Shown here: one piece after another, positions 6,571 to 11,469 of the stretch
Layout: each line of letters begins with the position of its first letter
How positions within the stretch are numbered: the stretch's first letter is position 1
NCBI GenBank assembly: GCA_947476215.1
Contig: CANJQI010000024.1
Location: forward strand, 1-42,248
DNA length: 42,248 nucleotides
Direction: 5' to 3'
Source: Betaproteobacteria bacterium
Lineage (GTDB): Bacteria > Pseudomonadota > Gammaproteobacteria > Burkholderiales > SG8-41
Translations under genes and position numbers: made by a program
Notes under the pieces: generated by a model
Seen by the model: only the letters and a program-made list of their open reading frames with translations
What the model was told of the DNA's origin: nothing
The model's database searches: none

Positions 6571-6826
6571 CTCTCACGGCACTAGTGCCTGAAAATCACC
6601 AAAAGAGGCAATAATGCACACACAAAATGTAGGTAAAAACCCTTGTGCAATGAATCCGTTCCGGATGCCTGCGGACAATACTGTCGAGATGTGCAACATG
6701 GCGGTCTGCAAGGGCAAGTCAAATTTCCGTGCGCGGCCGTCTCGATGGCCGCAGATAGCAGAGCGGTTGCGCGTATTATCAACAGCCATGAATTTGGCCG
6801 TAAGATGGCGCAAATTTTGGAAAACC

Positions 6827-7837
6827 ATGTCTAATGTTCGTAAATTGGGATCTGTACTGCTGACCGGCTTGCCGATCTTTTGCGTGGTGCCCGTGTCTGC
6901 TCAGACGCCCGCTTCAGGCCCAGGCCAGCCCACTGTGCAGGGCGCGGGACAGGCATATCCAAACAAGCCCATACGACTGGTTACGTCGCCGGCAGGTGGG
7001 GCGGGAGACTTTCTGGCCCGGCTCATCGCGGCCGGCATTTCCACCCCGCTGGGTGAGCAGGTGCTCGTCGACAATCGCCCCAGCGGCATCATTCCCGGAG
7101 AACTGGTGGCGCGGGCATCGCCTGACGGCTATACGTTGCTGGTTACGGGCAACAGCCTGTGGATAGGCCCGCTCCTGCAGGATACACCCTACGATCCGGT
7201 AAAGGACTTTCTGCCCATCACCGCGGCGGTGACCGCGCCGAACGTCTTGATCGTGCATCCGTCGTTGTCGGTACGATCCGTCAAGGAGCTGCTTGCTTTG
7301 GCCAGAGCAAGGCCGGGTGAGCTCAACTATGGTTCTTCCGGGACAGGTTCGACCAACCACCTCGCCGCGGAAATGTTCAAGGCGATGGCACGCGTCAAAA
7401 TCGAGCGTGTCAACTACAAGGGTTCCGGATTTGCGCTCACCGCATTGCTTGCAGGCGAGATACAGATAATTTTCAACACCGCGGGTGTCGTGACGGTTCA
7501 CCTGAAGTCGGGCAGACTCAAGGCGCTGGCGGTGACTTCCGCCGCGCCGTCGTCGTTGACGCCTGGTGTGCCTACTCTCGCGGCGTCAGGGCTGGCCGGC
7601 TACGAAGCGGTCACGGTGAATGGATTGCTGGCGCCTCCCAAAACACCGTCGACTATCATTAACCGGCTCAACCAGGAAACCGTGCGCTACCTGAGTCAAC
7701 CCGACGTCAGGCAGAAAGTCCTGAGTGCGGGCGTGGAGGTGGTTGCGGGTTCGCCGGAAGCGTTTGCCGCCATTATTAAATCCGAAATGGCCAGCATGGG
7801 CAGAGTTATAAAAGACGCCGGTATACGAACCAATTAA
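6827..7837 (+). CDS. Bug/TctC family periplasmic solute-binding protein
   Basis: Proteins of this family bind carboxylates or other small organic molecules in the periplasm. Start 6827 gives MSNVRKLGSVLLTGLPIFCV with a cleavable signal ending VSA-Q. An open frame reaches back to 6614 but would bury the signal. The mature part shows the usual blocks: YPNKPIRLVTSPAGGAGDF, a DNRPSG loop, ASPDGYTLL, DPVKDFLPI, and the C-terminal VIKDAGIRTN. It has 336 residues. No tctA/tctB membrane genes adjoin, so it is an orphan receptor. Its stop directly abuts the stop of the convergent gene 7838-8959. Confidence 0.9.
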   Translation: MSNVRKLGSVLLTGLPIFCVVPVSAQTPASGPGQPTVQGAGQAYPNKPIRLVTSPAGGAGDFLARLIAAGISTPLGEQVLVDNRPSGIIPGELVARASPDGYTLLVTGNSLWIGPLLQDTPYDPVKDFLPITAAVTAPNVLIVHPSLSVRSVKELLALARARPGELNYGSSGTGSTNHLAAEMFKAMARVKIERVNYKGSGFALTALLAGEIQIIFNTAGVVTVHLKSGRLKALAVTSAAPSSLTPGVPTLAASGLAGYEAVTVNGLLAPPKTPSTIINRLNQETVRYLSQPDVRQKVLSAGVEVVAGSPEAFAAIIKSEMASMGRVIKDAGIRTN

Positions 7838-8959
7838 TCAGCCGTTCCAGAATTCCTTGATCGAACGGGCAATCTGGCCTTCGCGTCGCCTGAGGGCCAG
7901 CGTTACCGAGCGCGTATTGCCGCCAAAACTCGGAATGAACGCCGAGTGTTTCCCGGGGCCGCCCACCACGACAATAATAATGTCATCGGGATTGTGTACT
8001 GCATACACCGGTGCGTCAGGCCCCGCGTTTGCATAGCGGTCCTTGAACATCACCTTCAGACGGCGCTCGATATTTTCCGTGGAGAATCGTCCCATGGGCA
8101 GCCAGGCGTGCTTCTGAATAAAGCGTTTTGCATCGGCCTTGGAGTAACCGCCCTGGGCTATGGTGTTCGCATGTTCCGGTCCGAGGACGACAACCGGCTG
8201 TTGCGATGGAAAATGCACATCGTTTGATCCGGTAATAGCCATGGTGCCGGCGATGGTCATCATGACGCCTTCGGCGCTCAGGCTCTCGTGGTCATTGACA
8301 TTGTGCGGAGCTTCGGCCCCGACCACGGTGACCGTCGTGGTTTCCCGCGCATGGCCGCGCTCCACGTGCAGCGGCTCCCATGGGCTTGCCACCTCGTTTT
8401 CCGCAATGCAGTACGTATATTTCGCCGGCGAGCCGTGCGTGGCCATGTCACCGACACCGGGGCGTGCACCGCCTATATTCAGTTGCGCGAGCCGAATCGC
8501 GCGGCCTATGGTGGCATTGGCCTGCACGCCGGGTCCGAAAGCATTGTGGCCGCTGTTGATGCCGAGTTCTTGCGCCACCGGGCCGTTGAAAATTAGCAGC
8601 GGCGCGCACGGGTGCGTCGTCGCCTGTATCGTGTAAAGATTGAAAGCCTCCTCGCACAGCGCTTCGACCGCGAGCATGACCAGCGGGAAATACTCCGGCT
8701 CGCATCCCGCCATCACCGCGTTGGCCGCGAGCCGCAGCGGCGTTGCTTCGCCGTAACGCGGCGCCATCCTGCCGATGGGCGCGGTCCACGTGCGGTCGCA
8801 CCAAGCCAGCATGGCCTCGACGCGTTCTTTGGTGGGCGGAACCACGGGCAGTCCGTCGCCCCAGCCGCGTTCCCGTATCATCGCATTCACCGCGGTAAAG
8901 TCGTCGTCGACCCACAGGCTGGCGCCATCGGCGCGCAGAAGATCCGCGAGATCGGTCAT
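7838..8959 (-). CDS. Conserved protein of unknown function, partner of the UGSC-like selenoprotein
   Basis: The 373-residue soluble protein has no signal peptide or membrane segment. I cannot assign a family name. Visible features are GWGDGLPVVPPTKERVEAML near the N-terminus, ANAVMAGCEPEYFPLV, TTHPCAPLLIFNGPV, ELGINSGHNAFGPG, and VVVGGPGKHSAFIPSFGG near the C-terminus, with several conserved-looking Cys and His residues. Its ATG overlaps the TGA stop of the selenoprotein gene by four bases (ATGA), so the two are translationally coupled and likely work together. The GDGLP and GGPGKHS segments could be catalytic or ligand loops; that is inference. Confidence 0.75.
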   Translation of the reverse strand: MTDLADLLRADGASLWVDDDFTAVNAMIRERGWGDGLPVVPPTKERVEAMLAWCDRTWTAPIGRMAPRYGEATPLRLAANAVMAGCEPEYFPLVMLAVEALCEEAFNLYTIQATTHPCAPLLIFNGPVAQELGINSGHNAFGPGVQANATIGRAIRLAQLNIGGARPGVGDMATHGSPAKYTYCIAENEVASPWEPLHVERGHARETTTVTVVGAEAPHNVNDHESLSAEGVMMTIAGTMAITGSNDVHFPSQQPVVVLGPEHANTIAQGGYSKADAKRFIQKHAWLPMGRFSTENIERRLKVMFKDRYANAGPDAPVYAVHNPDDIIIVVVGGPGKHSAFIPSFGGNTRSVTLALRRREGQIARSIKEFWNG

Positions 8960-9495
8960 TTGAAATGCTCCTTGATCAGGGGCACCAGTCTCGCTACCAC
9001 GATGTCGGCGCGTTGCTTGACGTTGTCCATCGCGAGCCCGCCGAGCGGGTGAGGAATTTCCACAAGCGGCAGGTCAGGGACGCCGAACGTGCGCGCCTGC
9101 GTGCTGCCAAGTTTCATGAAAGGGCTCGAACAGATGACCGCCGACACCATGCCGCGCTTTCGAAGTTCCGCCATGTCGTGGACACTCCACGACGTGCAGC
9201 CGCCTCAATCCGCCATTGCGCTGACCACAAAGTCAGCATCGGCCGCGAGTTGATCGAGAACAGACGCCGGCGCCCCCTTGCCGGAGGTCACTTTGCGCAG
9301 TGAGACGATAGACTTAACCGCAATCGCCGACTGTATGCCCTCGACGACAAAGCGCAGCAAATGGTCCGCATTGCCCTTGCTGTTGTCGAGTATGCCGATG
9401 CGCAGGCTGTTGCGTTTGAGCTCGCGCTGCTTACCCGCGCTTGCCAGCGGCAGCATGGGGGCTTCTGGCACGACTAAACAAATTTTAAGGGCCAT
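8956..9495 (-). CDS. Putative selenoprotein, UGSC-like family (in-frame UGA read as selenocysteine)
   Basis: Two open frames (9495-9205 and 9174-8956) lie in the same frame, joined by one TGA at 9207-9205 and ten further sense codons. Reading TGA as Sec gives one 179-residue protein with Sec97 in the context MAD-U-GGCTSWSVHD. This U-G-x-C motif followed by TSW.VHD resembles the described UGSC selenoprotein family, with Gly in place of Ser. Similarity of style continues on both sides (FVVSAMAD before, MAELRKRGMVSAVICSSPF after), as expected for one protein. An AAGGAAA ribosome site precedes ATG 9495. A hairpin suited to a SECIS follows the TGA. A redox role through Sec97/Cys100 is inferred. 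A nonsense mutation is the main alternative. No sel genes occur in this window. Confidence 0.75.
9175..9193 (-). promoter_or_regulatory. SECIS-like hairpin downstream of the in-frame UGA
   Basis: On the mRNA strand, GTCGTGG (9193-9187) pairs perfectly with CCACGAC (9181-9175) around the loop AGTGT. The closing A-T can extend the stem to 8 bp with a GUG triloop. The stem starts 11 bases after the UGA, and the loop G lies about 20 bases after it. Bacterial SECIS elements sit inside the coding region with an apical-loop G roughly 16-37 bases past the UGA, so the position fits. Part of the stem also encodes the conserved TSWSVHD, so coding constraint explains some of the sequence. Confidence 0.6.
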
Positions 9496-9629
9496 AGGGT
9501 TTCCTTGGTATTCGATTGCTCGTACGTCATTTCACGACGCACACGACAAGTTTTTGCTCAGGCTATGCTTGTAGAATGTACCGATATGATAAAGATGGTA
9601 TTTCAATGACAGTATCGAAAGAATAACAG

Positions 9630-10448
9630 ATGCCACGGATTCAGATTTCTCCTGGCCATGAGATGAACTATGCGATCGACGATTTCACCGATCCGTGGCG
9701 CAGACCGGAAACGGTGCTGCTTCTTCATGGAAACTTCGAGAGCGGTGACGTATGGTTCGGCTGGGTGCCGCATCTTGCGCGCAACTTCAGGGTGGTGCGT
9801 CCGGACATGCGCGGCTTTGGCGGCTCCACGCCCATGCCGCGTGATTATCGCTGGACTCTAGACGGCATTGTTGGCGATTACGTTCGTCTCATGGACGCCT
9901 TGGGCATCGGCAACTGCCATCTGGTGGGTGCCAAGATAGGAGGGCATATTGCGCGCCGTTTCGCATCCCGCCATCCTGAACGCGTTCGTACCCTGACGCT
10001 GGTCGGGACGCCACCACCCCGTCTGGATCACCTGGTCGAGGGACTTGCTGACCGGATCAAGGAATACGACATGCAAGGCGTCGGTGCGTGGGCGCGCAGA
10101 ACCATGCCGGGCCGGCTGGGTAGCCGATTCGCAGCCGAGGGCGCCGAGTGGTGGTCGCAGCTGATGAGCCGGACGCCTGTTTCGACGCAAATCGGGTTCA
10201 TGTCGTCCATTCCTGCTTCGGATGTGACGGCTGATTTGCCGCGCATTGCCTGCCCGACGCTGGTTATCACCAACGAAGACAGCCTGTCCGAAACGGTGGA
10301 AGACACCCGGGAATGGCAGCGACAAATAGCGGATTCGTCCCTGCTGGTGCTGCCCGGGGACTCACATCATGTCGCGGCAACCGACGCGGACAACTGTGCC
10401 AGGGCCACGCGGGATTTCATCCTGCGCGTTTCACCTACAACCAGCTGA
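9630..10448 (+). CDS. Alpha/beta hydrolase-fold protein with lysine at the nucleophile position
   Basis: The 272-residue protein has the oxyanion HG block (VLLLHGNFESGDVWFGW), the DMRGFGGS block and a C-terminal His pair in LPGDSHHVAAT (246-247). The nucleophile elbow, normally G-x-S-x-G, reads VGAKIGG, with Lys102 where Ser, Cys or Asp should be. Classical ester hydrolysis is therefore doubtful; it may be a lyase-like, binding or altered-mechanism member. ATG 9630 opens MPRIQISPGHEMNYAIDDFT. The next Bug gene starts 19 bases after its stop, so the two are probably co-transcribed, which hints that the ligand is what that receptor binds. Confidence 0.85.
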   Translation: MPRIQISPGHEMNYAIDDFTDPWRRPETVLLLHGNFESGDVWFGWVPHLARNFRVVRPDMRGFGGSTPMPRDYRWTLDGIVGDYVRLMDALGIGNCHLVGAKIGGHIARRFASRHPERVRTLTLVGTPPPRLDHLVEGLADRIKEYDMQGVGAWARRTMPGRLGSRFAAEGAEWWSQLMSRTPVSTQIGFMSSIPASDVTADLPRIACPTLVITNEDSLSETVEDTREWQRQIADSSLLVLPGDSHHVAATDADNCARATRDFILRVSPTTS

Positions 10449-10467
10449 CGACGGCAAAGGCATCGCG

Positions 10468-11469
10468 ATGCAAAGCATAAAGACGGAATCCGTTGCGTAT
10501 CGGCTGGTTGCCCGGCTCGTGCGTGTTCTGTTGCTGCTCACGGCAATAGGGCTGCCAGGCCACACCTTCGCGCAAACCTATCCATCAAAGTCCGTGCGTA
10601 TCGTGGTGCCGTTTCCGGCCGGTGCGGGTGGAGATTATGCGACGCGCTTGTTTACGCCGCGACTTTCCGAAGCGTTCGGGCAACAGTTCGTCATCGACAA
10701 CCGCAGCGGCGCCGCGGGAAATATCGGGGCCGAGGCTGTAGCCCGTGCCGCGCCGGATGGCTATACGCTGTTGACGGTATCGGTATCGCTTGCCATTGGC
10801 CAGAGCCTCTACAAAAATTTGACGTTCGATCTGGCACGCGATTTCGAACCGGTTGCACTGTTTGCATCCACGCCTTATGTGTTGGGCATACATCCGTCCG
10901 TGCCGGCAAAAAGTCTGGCTGACCTCGTCGCACTGGCCAAAGCGCGGCCGGGCCAGTTGATTTTTGGTTCCGCCGGCAGTGGCAGCGGCGGACACCTGAC
11001 AGCGGAAATGCTCAAGATGCAGGCCAACATCAACTTTCTGCATGTTCCCTACAAGGGTACGATACCCGCGATCACGGATCTGATTAGTGGACAGATTTCC
11101 ATGACATTTGCGTCCTCGCTGTTAACCCACATCAAGGCAGGCCGATTGCGTGGACTCGCCATTACGAGCGCCAAACGCAGCCTCGTTGCGCCGGAACTGG
11201 CGACCATAGCCGAGTCCGGTTTTCCGGGGTTCGAATCCGGCACCTGGTTCGGACTGCTGGCACCGGCGGGCACGCCGCGGGAAATCGTCACACGTCTGAA
11301 CGCGGTGGTCACGAATGCGGGACAGCTCCGGGAGATCCGTGATCTCCTGATGGCGCAGAGCGCCGCCGAGTCGCTGAGCGGAACCCCGGATCAGGCAGGC
11401 GCATATGTCCGAAACGAGATTACAAAATGGCGTAAAGTGGTTGCAGTGTCCGGTGCGCGGGCGGATTGA
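10468..11469 (+). CDS. Bug/TctC family periplasmic solute-binding protein
   Basis: Start 10468 gives MQSIKTESVAYRLVARLVRV and a signal peptide ending HTFA-Q; the longer open frame from 10369 overlaps the hydrolase and is unlikely. AAAGG lies 7 bases before the ATG. The mature protein shows TYPSKSVRIVVPFPAGAGGD, DNRSGAAGNIGAE, AAPDGYTLL, DLARDFEPV, and a variant C-terminus (WRKVVAVSGARAD) without the DAGI element of its neighbours. It has 333 residues. It is more divergent than the receptors at 6827 and 12478 and keeps the common PFPAGAGGD form. Confidence 0.9.
   Translation: MQSIKTESVAYRLVARLVRVLLLLTAIGLPGHTFAQTYPSKSVRIVVPFPAGAGGDYATRLFTPRLSEAFGQQFVIDNRSGAAGNIGAEAVARAAPDGYTLLTVSVSLAIGQSLYKNLTFDLARDFEPVALFASTPYVLGIHPSVPAKSLADLVALAKARPGQLIFGSAGSGSGGHLTAEMLKMQANINFLHVPYKGTIPAITDLISGQISMTFASSLLTHIKAGRLRGLAITSAKRSLVAPELATIAESGFPGFESGTWFGLLAPAGTPREIVTRLNAVVTNAGQLREIRDLLMAQSAAESLSGTPDQAGAYVRNEITKWRKVVAVSGARAD

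Follow-up and report, generated by a model that had tools for sequence, protein, structure and literature searches.

A predicted UGSC-family selenoprotein and its partner gene, multiplied to about fifty copies in a betaproteobacterial genome

We analyzed a stretch of betaproteobacterial DNA of 42,248 nucleotides (here called the window) and identified a gene predicted to encode a selenoprotein of the known UGSC family, in which an in-frame TGA would be read as selenocysteine (Sec, U). This selenoprotein probably acts with the product of the next gene as a two-part enzyme, a judgment that leaves the chemistry of the enzyme aside. The unexpected part is the lineage-wide multiplication of this two-part selenoenzyme, with about 50 copies in one genome. 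The features of the window are as follows.

6614..7837, plus strand: TctC/Bug substrate-binding receptor, convergent neighbor (PF03401, E 9.9e-59; enrichment near UGSC units)
7838..8959, minus strand: partner gene, 373 amino acids (ATGA overlap with the UGSC stop; fused to UGSC in other copies)
8956..9495, minus strand: predicted UGSC-family selenoprotein gene, ATG at 9495-9493 and stop TGA at 8958-8956, 179 amino acids, Sec at residue 97
9175..9193, minus strand: predicted SECIS hairpin, 8-bp stem, loop GTG, 19 nt from TGA to loop (fold, codon freeze, covariation, and synonymous constraint)
9205..9207, minus strand: predicted Sec codon TGA, the U of U-G-G-C (sequence and invariance in a 34-row alignment)
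9501..9506, minus strand: putative ribosome-binding site AAGGAA, 5 nt before the ATG (read from the sequence)
9630..10448, plus strand: alpha/beta hydrolase, divergent neighbor (PF00561, E 5.6e-29)
10369..11469, plus strand: TctC/Bug receptor (PF03401, E 8.9e-63)

On the minus strand, the first frame closes at the TGA at 9207-9205; the second opens with an ATG at 9174, after ten intervening sense codons (9204-9175). An earlier interpretation of this DNA from its letters (the sequence-only reading) had described two in-register frames parted by one TGA and ten sense codons, and re-reading the coordinates bore this out. Translating the TGA as Sec returned the 179-residue joined protein that it had described, with the motif U97-G-G-C-T-S-W-S-V-H-D. 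Its remarks on expression also held: the ribosome site that it had called good is AAGGAA at 9506-9501, five bases 5' of the ATG, and the downstream gene that it had called coupled is the partner gene, whose ATG (8959-8957) shares the bases ATGA with the terminal TGA (8958-8956) of the UGSC gene.

The joined protein matched the Pfam UGSC profile (PF24696) at 135.4 bits (E 2.8e-39; curated cut-off, 25 bits) when searched against UGSC-family models, as had been suggested. Protein residues 23-173 aligned to positions 19-169 of the 172 in the profile, which also recognized each half alone (5e-11 and 3e-13). Against the NCBIfam equivalog NF041046 the joined protein scored 118.5 bits, below the curated cut-off of 125, and we therefore filed it as a member of Pfam UGSC and not of NF041046. 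We defined relatives as the best 80 of 101 matches in a collection of named genomes; the closest came from MAGs titled Betaproteobacteria or Burkholderiales. The sequence-only reading had held that homologues with a different residue and no conservation after the TGA would speak against it; instead, a TGA stood at the Sec codon in 80 of these 80 relatives. Ten loci (L087, L093, L104, L108, L120, L123, L146, L147, L152, and L155) came from MAG records titled Bordetella parapertussis, labels that look doubtful because the contigs bear UGSC genes like those of uncultured betaproteobacteria.

A PF24696 search of the genome to which the window belongs gave 58 match places, equivalent to 57 genes, 54 of which have U at the motif (here called U-genes). 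In a 34-row alignment U97, G98, and C100 were invariant. The literal U-G-S-C is absent from the joined protein, whose motif is UGGC. Among the best 80 of 101 relatives the motif was UGSC in 60, UGAC in 20, and UGGC in none, and of 30 loci from the same genus, 27 were readable, 2 of them from this genome itself; only 1 of the remaining 25 had UGGC. In contrast, the 54 U-genes comprised 31 UGSC, 12 UGGC, 7 UGAC, 3 UGTC, and 1 UESC, such that UGGC, UGAC, or UGTC occurred in 22. The claim that a Gly variant would be unusual is thus only partly borne out: UGGC is a minority form, and this genome leans to Gly after Sec-Gly (9202-9196 in the window), with varied codons. Because searches with the family model or the joined protein found variants without Ser, Ser does not define the UGSC family. 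It is important to note that the family was already described as the "UGSC-containing protein" in the accessible part of PMC2398784, and that the available text of a review (PMC13188914) credits a 2007 paper for UGSC. The "putative new UGSC-like selenoprotein" of the sequence-only reading is therefore supported as a UGSC selenoprotein (by PF24696, selABCD, the retained TGA, and the SECIS) but is not of a new kind.

Beyond the TGA, the stem arms GTCGTGGA (9193-9186) and TCCACGAC (9182-9175) form eight perfect pairs around the loop GTG (9185-9183), 19 nt from the TGA, in agreement with the perfect 7-8 bp hairpin with a G in its loop, about 20 bases past the UGA, that had been reported. The hairpin folded alone at -11.1 kcal/mol and the 45 nt after the TGA at -17.2 kcal/mol. 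The bSECIS limits given in the accessible part of PMC13188914 are a loop of 3-9 nt with G in its first two positions, a spacing of 16-37, and an energy of <= -7.5; with its loop GTG, spacing of 19, and -17.2 kcal/mol for 45 nt, the hairpin falls inside them, and so does belong within the bacterial SECIS range, as had been proposed. Its fold was only moderately better than those of 200 synonymous shuffles, 18 of which reached an energy as low (z -1.56), and the strong evidence for a SECIS is comparative rather than drawn from the fold of the window gene alone. The synonymous difference to the 80 relatives was 0.21 in the ten codons after the TGA, compared with 0.63 before and 0.64 after. In 52 of the 54 U-genes the lowest-energy fold (45 or 60 nt after the TGA) included a hairpin within the bSECIS limits, a count that carries no shuffled control; the other 2 do not fit the SECIS model. 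Against 200 synonymous shuffles, 40 of the 54 had z < -1 (mean z, -1.52).

The paralogues divide into copies of the T-S-W type (n = 30), copies of a second type (n = 17), and seven that belong to neither stem type. Codons under the stem were frozen in the first type (Ser+5 TCG, 29/29; Ser+7 AGT, 26/26; Val+8 GTC, 18/18; His+9 CAC, 29/29) and in the second (Leu+8 TTG, 13/13; Arg+9 CGG, 16/17), with backgrounds of 0.10 for Ser AGT and 0.17 for Leu TTG in the same gene set. The outermost stem pair joins two silent positions, the third bases of codons +4 and +10. These were G-C in 22, A-T in 5, and G-T in 2 of the T-S-W copies, the single other pair belonging to a damaged copy on contig C7; among the 80 relatives they were G-C in 77, A-T in 2, and C-C in 1. 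In the second type, the third base of Thr+4 pairs with the second base of codon +10 (G-C 11, A-T 4, unpaired 2), and copies with ACA in place of ACG as the Thr codon have Val at +10, where the others have Ala. These covariation and codon counts are raw tallies that ignore shared descent. Given the codon freeze under the stem and the silent covariation of its outer pair between paralogues, we predict that the hairpin at 9193-9175 is a bacterial SECIS.

The genome is a draft of 5.75 Mb in 326 contigs (completeness, 98.46; contamination, 1.17). The sequence-only reading had proposed a search for selA, selB, selC, and selD and had taken a lack of selB or selC as evidence against itself. All four were found above curated cut-offs: selB (446 bits), selA (584), and tRNA-Sec (74) cluster in 5 kb of contig C221, and contig C41 has selD (424 bits), with an in-frame TGA of its own. 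We predicted at least 52 Sec genes, comprising 50 UGSC genes, SelD, and one GrdB-like gene. Judged by sequence, insertion of Sec into the window gene product in the cell is close to certain. The GrdB-like selenoprotein, with the motif UGTCTRCG (L198:1781-3271; contig C148:4958-6007 onward), corresponds to the selenoprotein B of glycine, sarcosine, or betaine reductases, here in a betaproteobacterium, and its relatives in genomes G003 and G009 have UGTSTR, without Cys after Sec. For comparison, the largest bacterial selenoprotein sets mentioned in the available text of PMC13188914 have 57 and 63 genes (the 63-gene genome being that of Deng 2026, according to its reference list), and the richest organisms are mainly anaerobes.

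The partner is a protein of about 370 residues that was fused or adjacent to UGSC in 53 of the 54 U-genes: as a C-terminal fusion in 35, as the next gene in 12, and directly upstream in 6. The one U-gene with no partner found is a damaged copy on contig C45. In total the genome had 65 partner matches, some being two pieces of one gene; those at C106:12283-13305 and C182:3817-4857 have an internal TGA. In 70 of the 80 relatives UGSC was followed by an open frame of 300 codons or more, with a 4-base overlap in 65, and the 27 of those 70 that were aligned were 58-72% identical to the window partner; the ten relatives without such a frame include L147, which is cut by a contig end. Across 60 related genomes, partner and UGSC had an identical distribution, both occurring in 39 and both missing from the other 21, and their copy numbers were correlated over 36 genomes (Spearman, 0.99, with several counts being lower bounds). 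An alignment of 51 partner rows revealed invariant C86, D35, G36, N80, R153, E187, and W194 (window numbering) and ten other invariant residues, and it includes copies on contigs C76 and C80 whose UGSC domain is without both U and C. These two fused copies (C76:16708-17226 and C80:22300-22671) have lost Sec and the following Cys (LCNAGI) and kept the invariant Cys of the partner. No Pfam family matched the partner at E up to 1, NCBIfam gave one 9.3-bit chance match, direct comparison with GrdB gave no similarity, and a fold comparison gave no confident fold. A fusion of UGSC with an extra domain, Unknown_1, was described in 2008 from Global Ocean Sampling data (PMC2398784, accessible part), and our partner is probably the same domain. 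We consider it likely that UGSC and the partner form one enzyme of two parts.

The UGSC part was without evident damage in 50 of the 54 U-genes, as far as the contigs reach and counting the C104 copy, which is cut by a contig end; in the other four it has an additional stop, is broken in frame, or lacks one end. No pair of paralogues exceeded 73% identity, and the median identity to the closest paralogue was 62% (54 copies; alignments over 100 residues), which indicates that the copies are neither recent duplicates nor mixed strains. UGSC was present in all 36 genomes searched from the same family (this one included), with 2 to 31 matches in each of the other 35 (median, 11). Beyond that family, it was present in 3 of the 24 genomes searched elsewhere in the order and, as a single copy, in 2 of a further 231 from the class. 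The literature that we searched contained no UGSC expansion or selenoprotein-rich Betaproteobacteria, and Haft and Tolstoy 2025 may, by its title, overlap with this result. With 255 sequences, UGSC ranked among the most abundant selenoprotein families of the Global Ocean Sampling data (accessible part of PMC2398784), and the available portions of the reviews examined give no function for it. Gene callers blind to Sec would probably cut most copies at the TGA.

A same-strand TctC/Bug receptor lay within 2 kb of 39 of the 58 UGSC match places, compared with 18.5% of control segments, the controls being 20 hand-picked contig stretches rather than random draws. The TctC genes closest to the UGSC gene of the window lie on the other strand from it. 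TctC occurs in at least 150 places in the genome, and it is common enough that co-location with UGSC may mean little. The density of TctC/Bug genes in a 200-kb hand-picked control (21; L157-L176) scales roughly to 600 genome-wide. With the window receptors on the other strand and TctC so abundant, a functional link of these receptors to the UGSC unit is suggestive only.

The structure predicted for a fused copy (pLDDT, 92.8; pTM, 0.93) had a Rossmann/flavodoxin-like UGSC part, and we treat the UGSC domain as Rossmann-like on the basis of this model. Comparison by hhalign of one UGSC alignment (A1) with four GrdB sequences gave 90.9% (E 1.1e-6) over 60 columns around Sec, and the 34-row UGSC alignment (A3) with the same four gave 25.8% (E 7e-4). 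In a scan of 51 members, 33 of them with a UGSC part, at E up to 0.1, GrdB was matched by 10 (best, 7.9e-5) and PrdB by 13 (best, 7.3e-4). The joined protein itself gave no PF07355 match at E up to 1, scored 16.6 bits against TIGR01917 (cut-off, 602), and reached none of the cut-offs of the GrdB/PrdB families (PF07355, TIGR01917, and TIGR04483). On these profile alignments, UGSC is putatively related, though remotely, to the Sec region of GrdB.

In the mechanism that we propose, SelB carrying tRNA-Sec would bind the hairpin at 9193-9175, and the ribosome would decode the UGA at 9207-9205 as selenocysteine, continue to 8958, and pass by translational coupling to the partner gene. The two proteins would then work as one enzyme, with two subunits in the window and a single fused chain in other copies. 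Sec would sit where a strand of the Rossmann-like UGSC domain leads into the following helix and would probably attack a small organic acid at a substituted carbon, C100 of U-G-G-C would resolve the selenium adduct, and the partner, with its one invariant Cys (C86), would probably bind or activate the substrate. Separate copies may serve separate substrates, some of them delivered by neighboring TctC/Bug receptors. GrdB-type Sec is held to attack a polarized carbon beside a carboxylate, and divergent GrdB copies reportedly serve different substrates, including fluoroacetate (PMC10838667, available part). We propose GrdB-related chemistry on many small acids on the grounds of remote homology and copy number; this chemistry, the substrate class, and the transporter link are tentative, and we would put them somewhat short of an even chance. 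In its fullest form, the proposal is that this family of uncultured betaproteobacteria has built dozens of substrate-specific selenoenzymes from one module, a GrdB-related UGSC Sec domain with its partner, each enzyme stripping a substituent from its own small organic acid, imported by a dedicated TctC/Bug receptor, and we offer this as a possibility that we rate below an even bet.

A different chemistry would follow if UGSC and its partner were a general thiol or peroxide redox enzyme, thioredoxin- or peroxiredoxin-like, with copies that differ in partner or regulation and not in substrate. The UxxC motif, the 2008 suggestion of a Trx-like fold, and the single invariant Cys of the partner fit such an enzyme. 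However, the fused-copy model at a pLDDT of 92.8 is Rossmann/flavodoxin-like, the 50 rows listed in the structure comparison included no thioredoxin (a listing that leaves a thioredoxin possible), and a general redox protein would not normally be expected in about 50 divergent copies. We regard a general redox enzyme as unlikely; the selenoprotein and its partner are common to both readings, which differ in chemistry only.

The coding frame itself could be read as two separate proteins, one ending at the TGA at 9207-9205 and the other starting at the ATG at 9174, or as a decaying pseudogene, and both frames do have start codons, with lengths of 96 and 72 codons. Yet the intervening codons are the most conserved part against the 80 relatives, all of which keep the TGA, no ribosome site was seen by eye before the ATG at 9174, and only 8 of the 30 copies of the same motif type in this genome have an ATG at that codon. 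The pN/pS ratio was 0.50 upstream of the TGA and 0.41 downstream of the post-TGA stretch, and we consider two proteins or a pseudogene extremely improbable. A sequencing error as the source of the TGA is likewise spoken against by the 54 in-genome copies and 80 relatives that share it. That the copy number is an artefact of several strains or species binned together would be in keeping with a draft of 326 contigs, and the accessible part of PMC13188914 voices the same caution about large selenoproteomes. The absence of any pair above 73% identity among the 54 copies, the completeness of 98.46 and contamination of 1.17, the occurrence of several matches on single contigs (six on C27, four on C11, and three on C14), and the 2 to 31 matches in each of 35 other genomes of the family make such an artefact very unlikely.

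With the preferred reading, a two-part selenoenzyme, UGSC is now tied to a fixed partner and its Sec region is tentatively placed near GrdB. At least 52 predicted Sec genes occur in one betaproteobacterium, nearly all of one family, and this lineage of about 50 copies allows UGSC function to be tested on fused, single-chain versions. If the proposal of many substrate-specific copies is true, the set of copies would be to selenium biochemistry what the extensive repertoires of cytochrome P450s or TonB receptors are in their own fields, and these bacteria would rank with the heaviest known users of selenium.

Compared with the UGSC family as described, the window protein has the same profile match over almost its full length, the same U-x-x-C motif, and a predicted SECIS. 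It differs in having UGGC and not UGSC, in its split two-gene form, and in its score below the NF041046 cut-off, and the genome differs in holding about 50 copies. Compared with GrdB, PrdB, GrdF, and GrdH (of the glycine, D-proline, sarcosine, and betaine reductases), about 60 residues around Sec align by profile, and the GrdB homologues aligned with UGSC include this genome's own GrdB-like protein (UGTCTRCG, L198). Growth into substrate-specific copies is known for GrdB, with 8 grdB genes in Cloacibacillus porcorum MFA1 (PMC10838667, available part). In contrast to GrdB, the joined protein is without a PF07355 match and far under the family cut-offs, and its partner is not GrdB-like.
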